Assembly: GCF_000337135.1 (NCBI RefSeq)
Contig: NZ_AOIN01000098.1
Span: 32,588-77,241 of the forward strand
Length of the DNA: 44,654 bases
DNA from: Natrialba chahannaoensis JCM 10990
Lineage (GTDB): Archaea; Halobacteriota; Halobacteria; Halobacteriales; Natrialbaceae
Direction: 5' to 3'
Shown: positions 14,746 through 18,422 of the stretch, one piece after another
Numbering within the stretch: position 1 is the stretch's first letter
Layout: every line of letters starts with the position of its first letter
Made by a program: the position numbers and the translations under genes
Notes under the pieces: model-generated
What the model was told of the DNA's origin: nothing
Seen by the model: the letters and a program-made list of their open reading frames with translations, nothing else
The model's database searches: none

Positions 14746-16229
14746 ACGACCACCCCAGATTCAGTCCGCACGGCCGTCCCACACTCACGGACGATGTCAA
14801 GCATCGCCGCCACGTCGTCGAGCGTCGCCATCGGGTTTAACAGCGTGAACTTCAGACTGGTCACACCGTCGACGGCGGTCCGTGCGACGACCGCACGTCC
14901 CTCGGCGAGTAGTTCCTCCCGAACTGCCGCGTTGAGTCGGCTTACCGCGTCGTCGTCCATGTTCGTCTCGGGTCGGTACTGGAAAACGACGGCATTGAGT
15001 GTCGGGTCGTTCACCAGCCGGAAGTCGTCAGCATCGGCGAGCAACTGCGAAGCGTCGTCTGCCAAGGTGAGCGTCGATTCGACCAGCGATGCCAGTCCCG
15101 TCCGACCTAGCGTCCGGAAGGTCAGATACGGTTTGAGCGCGTCGAAGCGACGCGTTGTCTGGACCGACTTCGAAACCAGGTTCGGTACCCCGGCGTCGTC
15201 GTGGTCCTCGGGATTGAGGTAGGCGGCGTTGCGTGCCATCCATCCGAACTGCTGCTCATCACGTAGCAGGAGCGCGCCACAGCTGATTGGCTGGTAGAAC
15301 AGCTTGTGGAAGTCGACGGCGACCGAGTCCGCGCGGTCGATTCCCACGAGGCGGTCGTCGTATTCGTCACTGAGCGCGAGCGCGCCGCCGTAGGCCGCGT
15401 CAACGTGCAACCAGAGGCCGTGGTCGAAAGCACGGTCGGCGAGATCAGTGAGCGGGTCGATGCTCCCGAAGTCGGTTGTCCCAGCGGTGCCCACGAGCGC
15501 GAACGGGTCGCAGTCACGGCGGTCGAGGTCCGCAAGCGTGGCGTCGAGCGCGTCCGTATCAATCCGGTGTGCGTCGTCCGTGGGGACGGTGACAACCGCG
15601 TCCTCACCGAGTCCGAGGTAGTGAACGGCCTGGGTGGCCGTGAAGTGCGCCGCTTCCGAGCAAACAATACGTAGCGACGACGCCTCGGTTGGAAGGCCCT
15701 CAGCCTGGACATCGCGACCGAACTCCTGTGCGCAGTACCAGTCGCGGGCGAGCAGGAGTGCTTGGAAATTCGACTGCGTCCCGCCGCTGGTGAAGATACC
15801 GTCTGCCCCGTCCGGGAGGCCAAACAGGTCGCAGAGAGCGTCGACGACCCGCTGTTCGAGGACCGTCGCCGCCGGTGCCTGGTCGAAGGAGTCAAGGGAC
15901 TGGTTCGTCGCGGTGAGCATCGCCTCTGCGGCGAGGCCGGGAATGATCGGCGGACACTGGAGGTGGGCAGCACACCGCGGGTGTGCTGTCCTGACTGAGT
16001 GTGCGAGGACCGTCTTGGCGACATCCTCAATTGTTGCGTTGAGCTGCATGCCCTCCTCCGGGATAACTGGTTCGGTCAGTTGTCCGGCCAATTCTGTCGG
16101 TGAACGCCCAGAGTAGGGGGTTTCCGTGTCAGTGACACTGTCGACGACAGCGTCGGTTGCCTGCTCCATCGCTGCCCGGTAGGCGGCGTTCCCTGCCTCC
16201 GAGCCGATGAACAGCTCCTCGATACTCAT
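14742..16229 (-). CDS. ddc: L-2,4-diaminobutyrate decarboxylase
   Basis: The 495-residue product is a fold-I PLP enzyme of the group II decarboxylase family. It has FTSGGTQSNFQALLLAR at about 146-162, the cofactor-binding Asp in WLHVDAAYGG (D277) and the Schiff-base lysine K309 in SVAVDFHKLFYQP. It would convert L-2,4-diaminobutyrate to 1,3-diaminopropane, the amine of schizokinen and rhizobactin 1021. ATG 16229 overlaps the TGA of the aminotransferase gene. A longer frame to 16400 is only antisense-like, low-quality sequence inside the upstream gene. It is equivalent to rhbB. Confidence 0.92.
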   Translation of the reverse strand: MSIEELFIGSEAGNAAYRAAMEQATDAVVDSVTDTETPYSGRSPTELAGQLTEPVIPEEGMQLNATIEDVAKTVLAHSVRTAHPRCAAHLQCPPIIPGLAAEAMLTATNQSLDSFDQAPAATVLEQRVVDALCDLFGLPDGADGIFTSGGTQSNFQALLLARDWYCAQEFGRDVQAEGLPTEASSLRIVCSEAAHFTATQAVHYLGLGEDAVVTVPTDDAHRIDTDALDATLADLDRRDCDPFALVGTAGTTDFGSIDPLTDLADRAFDHGLWLHVDAAYGGALALSDEYDDRLVGIDRADSVAVDFHKLFYQPISCGALLLRDEQQFGWMARNAAYLNPEDHDDAGVPNLVSKSVQTTRRFDALKPYLTFRTLGRTGLASLVESTLTLADDASQLLADADDFRLVNDPTLNAVVFQYRPETNMDDDAVSRLNAAVREELLAEGRAVVARTAVDGVTSLKFTLLNPMATLDDVAAMLDIVRECGTAVRTESGVVV

Positions 16230-17599
16230 ACAGCCACCTCGGCGGGGTCGGTGTCCGTGCCGGCGACGGCAGCGACAGCCTCGTGGAAAATCGCCGCGAT
16301 GTCGTCGACCTGCCCCTCTGAGACGACGAGCGGCGGGAGGAACCGTGCGGTCGCACTGTCGCGGCCTCCGAGTTCGATAATCAGTCCGCGGTCGAAACAC
16401 GCGGCCTGAACCGCCTCCGCGAACTCGCCGTCTGGTGCGTGTGGTCCTGCGCCCTGCCAGTCCGCGGCCGAGTTAACGAACTCGACACCCTGCATCAGTC
16501 CGCGACCGCGGACTTCACCGACTGCGTCGAACTGTTCGGCAGTCGTCTCCAAGTGGTCACGGAGCCGGGAACCGACCTCGGTCGCGTGGTCGTCCAAGTC
16601 GTGTTCGAGTATGTAGTCGATAGTCACCTCGCCAGCAACCATGGCCAGTTGATTTCCGCGGAAAGTGCCCGCGTGTGTCCCCGGTTCCCACACGTCGAGG
16701 TTCTCGTCGTATACGACGGCTGCGAGCGGCAACCCACCGCCAATCGCTTTCGAGAGAGTGAGAACATCCGGAACGATGTCCGCGTGCTCGAAAGCATACA
16801 GTTCGCCGGTACGGCCGAGTCCTGCCTGAATCTCGTCGAGAATCAGTGGGATATCGTGCTTGCGAGTTATCCGGCGTATCTCTTGGAGCCATCCGTCAGG
16901 TGCTGGAATCGTACCGCCTTCGCCCTGGACGGGTTCGAGTATCATCCCAGCAGGGTCGGTGACGCCGCTCTCGCCGTCGGTGAGCAGATTCTCGACGTAG
17001 TCGCTTGCAATTCGATGACCCTCGGTCCCGCCGACCCCGAAGGGACATCGATAGTCGTAGGGAAACGGGAGGTGGTGGACATCGCTCATCAGCCCTGGGA
17101 TTGACTCCTTGGCGTCGGTGTCACCCATCAACGAGAGTGCACCGTTTGTCATTCCGTGGTATCCGCCCTGGAACGCGAGGACACTCCGGTTTCCCGTGGC
17201 AGTCTTGACGAGTTTGAGCGCGGCTTCGACAGCGTCCGTCCCCGCGGGACTGCAGAACTGGATCTTGGCCTGATCACTGAATTCGTCGGGGAGACTCTCG
17301 AACAGCGAATCCACGAATCGCTCCTTCGCGGGCGTCGAGATATCAAGCGTGTGGAGTGGGCGATCGGCGTCAAGAGCGTCTTCTATTGCCGCGATCACCT
17401 GTGGGTGGTTGTGGCCGAGTGCGAGCGTGCCAGCACCCGCAAGGCAGTCGTAATACTCGTTCCCACTCATGTCGGTCACAGTGACTCCCTTCGCCTCACG
17501 GATGGCAAGAGGGAGGTATCGCGGATACGTCCGGGCATTGGATTCCCGCTCAGCCTGCTGTGTGAGAATCGTTTGATTCTCTTGATCTAGATATCTCAT
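16226..17599 (-). CDS. dat: Diaminobutyrate-2-oxoglutarate aminotransferase
   Basis: The 457-residue protein is a class III PLP aminotransferase: AGAGTLALGHNHP at about 54-66, FCSPAGTDAVEAALKL at 115-130, GGYHGMTNGALS, D255 in LILDEIQAGLGRTG, and Schiff-base K284 in TLSKAIGGGLPLA. It would make L-2,4-diaminobutyrate from aspartate semialdehyde and glutamate. EctB-type ectoine enzymes are related, but no ectoine genes are near and the decarboxylase follows directly. ATG 17599 has GAGG about 7 nt upstream. It is the first gene of the operon, with a leader of about 69 nt. Confidence 0.92.
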   Translation of the reverse strand: MRYLDQENQTILTQQAERESNARTYPRYLPLAIREAKGVTVTDMSGNEYYDCLAGAGTLALGHNHPQVIAAIEDALDADRPLHTLDISTPAKERFVDSLFESLPDEFSDQAKIQFCSPAGTDAVEAALKLVKTATGNRSVLAFQGGYHGMTNGALSLMGDTDAKESIPGLMSDVHHLPFPYDYRCPFGVGGTEGHRIASDYVENLLTDGESGVTDPAGMILEPVQGEGGTIPAPDGWLQEIRRITRKHDIPLILDEIQAGLGRTGELYAFEHADIVPDVLTLSKAIGGGLPLAAVVYDENLDVWEPGTHAGTFRGNQLAMVAGEVTIDYILEHDLDDHATEVGSRLRDHLETTAEQFDAVGEVRGRGLMQGVEFVNSAADWQGAGPHAPDGEFAEAVQAACFDRGLIIELGGRDSATARFLPPLVVSEGQVDDIAAIFHEAVAAVAGTDTDPAEVAV

Positions 17600-17672
17600 A
17601 GGGCGTCCTCTGTGGCGATCGAAATTGTCTCACGTACGGTTCGTCTTCGGCCGGTTACAGATCGCATATTGA

Positions 17673-17688
17673 TTTAGGCCAGCCTAAA
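17673..17688. promoter_or_regulatory. DtxR/Idr-type operator 1
   Basis: TTTAGGC-CA-GCCTAAA is a perfect 7+7 palindrome. It matches the TTAGG..CCTAA core of DtxR-family iron-repressor sites (Idr/SirR proteins in haloarchaea). It sits between the TATA box and the predicted transcription start of the siderophore operon, where a bound repressor would block polymerase. Confidence 0.8.
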
Positions 17689-17690
17689 AG

Positions 17691-17698
17691 AAATAAAT
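17691..17698 (-). promoter_or_regulatory. TATA box of the siderophore operon
   Basis: On the minus strand ATTTATTT lies between the two palindromes. Transcription would start near 17668, about 69 nt before the dat ATG. Confidence 0.65.
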
Positions 17699-17707
17699 CT
17701 TCTGGAT

Positions 17708-17723
17708 TTTAGGCTGCCCTAAA
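17708..17723. promoter_or_regulatory. DtxR/Idr-type operator 2
   Basis: TTTAGGC-TG-CCCTAAA is a near-perfect copy of operator 1 with one mismatch between half-sites. Its centre is 35 bp from that of operator 1, on the other side of the TATA box where TFB would bind. Confidence 0.75.
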
Positions 17724-17870
17724 GAATAGGAAGGGGATCACCCTCTACTTATACAATATCTATAGAATTTTATTTCGAATACTATTATATCATTCTGGAA
17801 TGTGTTTATTTTCACCTCGAAAGCCATTCGAATGCCGCACTAAGAATCCGTTTCTCACATTTTATCTCCC
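17724..17870. other. AT-rich intergenic segment
   Basis: The segment is unusually AT-rich between the siderophore promoter and the decayed transposase. No gene or repeat is seen. It may contain the former terminal repeat of the IS1595-type element. Confidence 0.4.
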
Positions 17871-18175
17871 TCACAGCAGAGCTTTGATAGCCTGTTTAAG
17901 CGGTTCTTTGCCTGGTTTCCGCAGTAATTCTCGTCAAAGCTATAGTAACAACTGAAACTGTTTACACACCAATCGCATAGCCTTCATGCGATTGGGTGTG
18001 CACTGACTTTCAGTGGCTACTATAGAAGGCCTGGAGATACTGTGTAAGTTTATCCTTTGAGGTGTCTCAAGATGTCGAGAACCACGGTCGCAGCAGCGAT
18101 CAGTGGCTCTCGCAGGTATTGACGTAGACATCTTCAGCCGCGTATTCGCCGTCGCCGTGGACGAGTATTCGCCGT
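17871..18175 (-). pseudogene. Decayed IS1595-family transposase, C-terminal end, MITE-split
   Basis: Reading the minus strand from about 18175 gives LVHGDGEYAAEDVYVNTCESH, stop, SLLRPWFSTS, stop, DTSKDKLTQYLQAF. An insertion follows, then after it a stop codon, L, a stop codon, and RELLRKPGKEPLKQAIKALL ending at the TGA 17873-17871. This is the conserved C-terminus of haloarchaeal IS1595-type transposases (HGDGEY, VNTCESH, SKDKLT, AFQLRR). At least four in-frame stops are present; two replace Arg (CGA to TGA) and one Gln (CAG to TAG), all C-to-T changes. Upstream of about 18175 the frame can no longer be followed, so the N-terminal two thirds are lost or unrecognisable. Confidence 0.72.
17943..18022. 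mobile_element. 80-bp MITE with TA target duplication
   Basis: The ends TAGTAACAACTGAAA and TTTCAGTGGCTACTA are inverted repeats matching at 13 of 15 positions. Inside, ACACCAATCGCAT and ATGCGATTGGGTGT form a second inverted repeat, so the whole folds as one hairpin. TA occurs on both sides (17941-17942 and 18023-18024). Removing the element and one TA restores the transposase reading frame exactly (AF, TAG for Gln, L, TGA for Arg, RE), which fixes the boundaries. A TA duplication points to an IS630/Tc1-mariner-type transposase as mobiliser. Confidence 0.75.
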
Positions 18176-18422
18176 CGAATGCCTACAGAAGGCCGTCCGA
18201 AAAATCTGGACCTACACTGTCTGCTCGGCGTCTCGAGTACCTGTGCTGATCTCGGGGGAGGGCCGACCGACGTAGCGGTACCGCCGTCACTGGACGAACA
18301 CCAGCCGTAGCGATCAGAAATCGCCACTCACACTGCACTGCCATCACGATGGCAGGAATCAAGATCGCGGGGTTTCGTCTGCAACCCGCACACTCATACG
18401 CCCACTCGATGGGTCAGCAGGT
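18176..18422. other. Intergenic, probably eroded IS sequence
   Basis: No gene is supported. GTATTCGCCGTCG occurs twice around 18141-18177 as a short direct repeat. The part nearest the HTH-GNAT gene would hold its promoter, but no clear TATA box is seen. Confidence 0.35.

Follow-up and report, generated by a model that had tools for sequence, protein, structure and literature searches.

A non-coding, palindromic MITE of 80 bp lies within a dead transposon of the IS1595 family in Natrialba chahannaoensis JCM 10990, inserted at TA with a 2-bp TA duplication. This is supported because repeat copies with the same ends, empty sites and uninterrupted IS1595 relatives were all found, in agreement with a preliminary description in which the locus was interpreted as a MITE nested in a decayed IS1595 element. 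The MITE was probably moved in trans (estimated probability about 0.8) by an IS630/Tc1-type enzyme with TAGTA-type ends and a preference for CTAG, into an IS1595 copy that was inactive and internally deleted. The observations underlying this reading are the repeat family, its common ends, the TA duplication, the CTAG preference, the empty sites and the restored reading frame. The window, i.e. the whole stretch of 44,654 nucleotides that was analysed, belongs to a draft assembly of 106 contigs (4.31 Mb), and contains the following features.

17871..18175, minus strand: pseudogene of an IS1595-family transposase (3' part), split by the MITE; four stops lie in frame and one base is lost (52/73 residues identical to the transposase of locus L092 after excision; DNA alignments)
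17941..17942, no strand: left TA of the target duplication, site CTAG (the 82-base excision keeps one TA and restores the frame; single-TA empty sites of other copies)
17943..18022, no strand: palindromic MITE, 80 bp, ends TAGTAACAACTG / TAGTAGCCACTG (44 own-genome matches; aligned copies with the same ends; hairpin z -6.8)
18023..18024, no strand: right TA of the target duplication (82-base excision; empty sites)
18182..18195, minus strand: left terminal sequence of an IS1595 element, brought near the transposase 3' part through internal deletion (12/14 bases shared with the intact element L093 at its left end)

Without excision, the match of the remnant to the 310-aa transposase of L092, from the same genome, splits into two frames. 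When 82 bases were excised, a single gapless alignment of 73 residues was obtained (52 identical, 71 %, E 9e-32), which bears out the earlier claim that removal of 80 bp plus one TA restores the transposase frame. Across the junction the remnant has QAF*L*RELLRKPG where the relative has QAFQLRRKLLRKPG, and the Gln and Arg codons have thus become TAG and TGA, as had been proposed. Two further in-frame stops lie beyond these two, and one base is missing close to the 5' end of the homology. The limits given for the remnant also held, its stop codon being located at 17871-17873 and its 5'-side homology extending to about 18175. At the DNA level the remnant and L092 are 82.8 % identical over 221 bases. 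The L092 protein matches PF12762 (DDE_Tnp_IS1595) and PF12760; the 72-residue remnant alone, with X at the stops, gave no Pfam match, and the family assignment therefore rests on the pairwise alignment to L092. The intact kin of the host are IS1595 elements of about 1,000 bp, L092 (1,001 bp) and L093 (1,000 bp), which are bounded on both sides by 8-bp duplications, TTGTTCTT and TCGCACGA; the window copy, by comparison, is internally deleted and dead. A right end and an 8-bp duplication, both present in L092 and L093, were looked for in the remnant and neither was clear. The sequence CGGCCTTCTGTAGG (18195 down to 18182) matches 12 of the 14 bases of the L093 left end, a score reached at just one of 89,282 window positions, and the remnant may accordingly be read, from its sequence, as an internally deleted IS1595 element in which the left end was joined to roughly the last 80 codons.

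The target site on the transposase strand is TTC TAG, i.e. CTAG, and the target TA falls within the new TAG stop. All nine aligned IS1595 relatives have CA at this position on the transposase strand and no TA, L225 for example reading TTC CAG. Since insertion requires a TA and the nine relatives have none there, the junction stop is most likely older than the MITE; it is possible that a parent IS1595 copy outside the sample already carried the TA. A single C-to-T change in the Gln codon would yield the stop and the CTAG together. The earlier order of events (IS1595 insertion, then decay and MITE entry) is thereby supported, and sharpened for this one stop; for the internal deletion, the other stops and the 1-base deletion the relative order cannot be set. 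The stop that killed the host transposon thus seems to have created the target for the next one, an unusually legible history. The proposed course would begin with this C-to-T change, producing the TAG stop and the CTAG target before the MITE was present; the IS1595 element would have been inactive and internally deleted already when the MITE arrived. An IS630-type transposase acting in trans would then have recognised the TAGTA-type ends, presumably by cut-and-paste, and the MITE would have entered the CTAG with duplication of the TA.

The MITE is a near-palindrome, TAGTAACAACTG...CAGTGGCTACTA, flanked by TA on both sides. Folded as a DNA strand, the 84 nt comprising the 80 bp and both TA reach -20 kcal/mol, where shuffled sequences average -6.7 (z -6.8; 0 of 200 shuffles did as well). 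The 14-base end pattern occurs in the window solely at the two MITE ends (0.01 expected with one mismatch allowed), and the exact 14-base end occurs 60 + 57 times (117) in the genome, against 0 for the reversed control. Terminal inverted repeats and a target duplication are both present, as judged from the alignment, the pair counts and the single TA at 9 of 13 empty sites. The element is short and multi-copy, and a transposase was absent from the copies read. A likeness to Rfam mir-559, a human microRNA hairpin, at 17939-18026 on both strands was rejected (29 and 26 bits vs a threshold of 95) and is probably a matter of hairpin shape alone.

A 96-base query returned 44 matches in the genome, two of which are short pieces. 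The preliminary description had proposed a search of haloarchaeal genomes for the 80 bp, and this search was productive: the family is present in 29 of the 61 genomes searched as relatives and in 78 of 293 sampled genomes of the order (own genome counted in both). It also matches 42 plasmid records, the 40 listed ones all being haloarchaeal, and no match was found in the phage records searched with the MITE. A copy in Natrialba magadii (G003, same genus) lies at C2:137960-138044 of NC_013923.1. Copies with different ends, which would have spoken against the element as delimited, were looked for, and those that were read end in the same way. Including both TA, the main size class is 84 bp; other copies measure about 124 bp, 50 bp (L098, L256, L339) or 158-408 bp, and the longer ones carry GC-rich modules within the loop. 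Copies of 188-214 bp and one of 376 bp (including both TA) were rejected as size classes, as they contain N and repeat their own parts, and were treated as assembly joints. In L245, L246, L247, L248 and L250 the modules of the loop are in tandem, e.g. GCGGTTCTCACTCACTTCGTTCGCTC, as if the loop of the long copies had grown by tandem duplication. The 50-bp copies (L098 1672-1721, L256, L339 2118-2167) are without the inner stem, and the junction in L256 is compatible with a deletion between the CACTGA repeats of the two arms. Nesting was also seen elsewhere: in L062 a 124-bp copy lies within another MITE copy (1464-1669), and in L121 (1365-2501) a 1,055-bp IS630 is located between two MITE ends. 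Two copies in L020 have one TA in common, as expected for a unit of 80 bp + TA. With its occurrence in 78 of the sampled genomes and its strong CTAG target, the family makes a useful marker of haloarchaeal genome dynamics and gives a clear lead to the missing transposase; apart from this use and the legible history of the locus, the arrangement is an ordinary nesting of mobile elements.

The target was determined for 32 copies drawn from 40 loci, the tandem loci L020 and L031 being left out, two loci skipped (flanks with N or short) and the rest not fitting the search expression. Insertion was at CTAG in 25 of the 32 own-genome copies, compared with 2.6 % of 2,034 TA sites in the surrounding loci. 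Empty sites were sought by searching the joined flanks of the same 32 copies in six sister genomes and aligning them to the 30 returned loci and ten others. For 13 copies a homologous site spanning the junction and free of the element was found in the sister genomes; for the remaining 19, none of the alignments to those loci crossed the junction. A single TA is kept at nine of the 13 empty sites (L011, L012, L013, L019, L026, L029, L036, L039, L045), and TA is absent from the relatives at four (L009, L022, L037, L038), the window site being among the four; gaps lie close to the junction in L037 and L045. The empty site of the window copy is represented by IS1595 copies located elsewhere. Together with the 82-base excision, the sites with a single TA uphold the 2-bp TA duplication that had been described; the four lacking TA count against the overall reading. 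In L039 the MITE copy (802-885) interrupts apparent codon 5 of a conserved reading frame, and the sister genomes have ATGAGCGAAACCTACTAC without the copy.

Candidate mobilisers were found in a haloarchaeal IS630 group of 1,055 bp (L117, L121-L149, L257-L336), which has in common with the MITE the TAGTA ends, the TA duplication, the CTAG target and some subterminal bases, and differs from it in encoding a transposase and in end positions 12-13. IS630 itself prefers CTAG. The transposase of the group has D9, D87 and E122, with 34 residues separating the last two, and matches PF13358 (IS630-type), a domain found four times in the own genome and in 71 of the 121 genomes searched from the family. 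Among 53 PF13358 loci read, both ends were located by a strict rule in 29, and the site is C[TA]G for 25 of these. In a second scan based on 12 aligned IS630 transposases (87-96 % identical to the first), both ends were located in 58 of the best 80 of 172 named loci, and 37 of the 58 are in C[TA]G. In L257-L336 the transposases are near-uniform (83-98 % identical to the query) and the terminal repeats clearly variable. Twenty further PF13358 loci were inspected for other IS630 groups, and rejected: roughly one in four is a member of the TAGTA group, and no TAGTA-type ends were obtained from the rest.

The C-terminal-side end of the IS630 group is identical to the TAGTAG end of the MITE at up to 20 of 26 positions, and the other-side end to the TAGTAAC end at up to 21 of 26 (in each case with the better of two MITE subfamilies), these being the best values among many IS630 ends, for which 14-19 is typical; random genomic 26-mers with TAGTA fixed reach 18 or more matches in 0.06-0.09 %. 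The two differ at positions 12-13: in the IS630 group, position 12 is A in 75 and position 13 G in 74 of the 75 C-terminal-side ends, with 64 and 62 of 65 for the ends of the other side, and nearly all MITE ends have G followed by A or C (G 36/39). A complete element bounded by the MITE's own ends was found neither in the own genome (100 of the 117 end places listed) nor in genomes G025, G011 and G065, and no transposase lay between MITE ends among the matches listed in 13 genomes, nor in the longer copies or odd ends. As a source of the partner, viral contigs were rejected; the 35 stretches (26-46 % G+C) have one exact end each and were taken as chance matches. The mobiliser of IS630/Tc1 type suggested earlier is thus well supported at the level of sequence, because of the TA duplication, the target and the similarity of the ends; the full IS with the ends TAGTAGCCACTGAAA that was to accompany it did not turn up. 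The 1,055-bp group is the nearest sampled candidate; the differing positions 12-13, the full element not found and the MITE-bearing genomes without a PF13358 match count against this particular group, and an unsampled or extinct cousin is at least as likely.

A mobiliser of a different transposase family that targets TA or CTAG, such as an IS5-family group, is unlikely; the likeness to IS630 ends would then in part be convergence on the target. In its favour are the two nearly invariant IS630 end positions that differ from the MITE, the MITE-bearing genomes in which PF13358 has no match, at least nine in number (G010, G011, G013, G014, G026, G028, G031, G061, G065), and the autonomous partner not being found in the own genome, G025, G011 and G065; yet the likeness of both MITE ends to their counterparts in the IS630 group extends past TAGTA, and the C[TA]G target and TA duplication are common to the two. 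Less probable still is that the hairpin, as a structural repeat and not a TA-duplicating MITE, was dispersed by a single-strand route (REP or IS200/IS605-like). The near-perfect palindrome and its pairing, retained in 96.0 % of cells across copies vs 92.3 % in shuffles, would suit that route, but the TA duplication, the terminal inverted repeats, the empty sites with one TA and the net gain of 82 bases at the window site speak for insertion of a MITE. That the 80 bp were original to the IS1595 element is hardly credible: nothing found supported it, the same sequence occurs at many unrelated places, and the nine IS1595 loci aligned across the site (L091, L092 and L093 in the own genome; L214, L218, L219, L224, L225 and L230 in sister species), examined as possible counter-evidence, are all without the insert.

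Among 37 distinct copies, the pairing frequencies given above compare with 18-39 % in slid structures, and both sides have changed in 38 cells vs 12.1 in shuffles (0/500). Pairs with a double change number 5 vs 4.3 in shuffles (192/500), which is not above expectation, further pair types are commoner in shuffles, and the double-sided changes mostly divide two or three MITE subfamilies. Pairing is kept in the hairpin arms, and selection is not claimed. A wider proposal, that this is an order-wide haloarchaeal family of hairpin MITEs with ends TAGTARCMACTG and an IS630-cousin mobiliser, in which the arms stay paired via paired changes as the hairpin is itself of importance, in transposition or in some cellular role (e.g. 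silencing other transposons), is quite improbable.

The nearest described kind of element is RUP of Streptococcus pneumoniae, and the haloarchaeal family could be termed a RUP-like palindromic MITE. RUP is 107 bp long, has a TA target and the proposed mobiliser IS630-Spn1, and was found within IS transposase genes (PMC2229807). Both are non-coding elements of about 100 bp with inverted ends, a TA target and about a hundred copies per genome, inside IS transposase genes (PMC2229807). The haloarchaeal MITE differs in sequence, host and CTAG target, and the ends of its IS630 partner do not match closely, unlike those of RUP and IS630-Spn1. The MITEs of Haloquadratum walsbyi are likewise haloarchaeal and non-coding, often sit within other mobile elements, and in some cases lack a functional partner; IS630 has 0 occurrences in the main text of that paper (PMC3119063). 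In a further survey, the tabulated partners of haloarchaeal MITEs are IS4, IS1595 and IS200/605, and an 89-bp IS630-type MITE is tabulated for M. mazei (PMC3852290). The terms 'mite', 'inverted repeat', 'palindrom' and 'repetitive' are absent from the main text of the N. magadii genome paper (PMC3403918), and a literature search, with ISfinder outside its scope, returned no description of this haloarchaeal MITE family.

The nested remnant lies at a break in synteny (17570-18217), with different sister species having the left and the right neighbourhood. Homology to G004 and G001 starts at 18217 and 18221, and homology to G002, G005 and G006 stops at 17570. Two TTTAGGCNNNCCTAAA palindromes are located at 17673-17688 and 17708-17723, where chance would give 0.04 matches when two mismatches are tolerated, and they lie upstream of the minus-strand gene for a diaminobutyrate transaminase (16226-17599); they are presumably sites for a metal-dependent DtxR-type regulator of a putative siderophore operon. 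A similar sequence, TTTAGGCACGCCTAAA, adjoins the MITE in L040.
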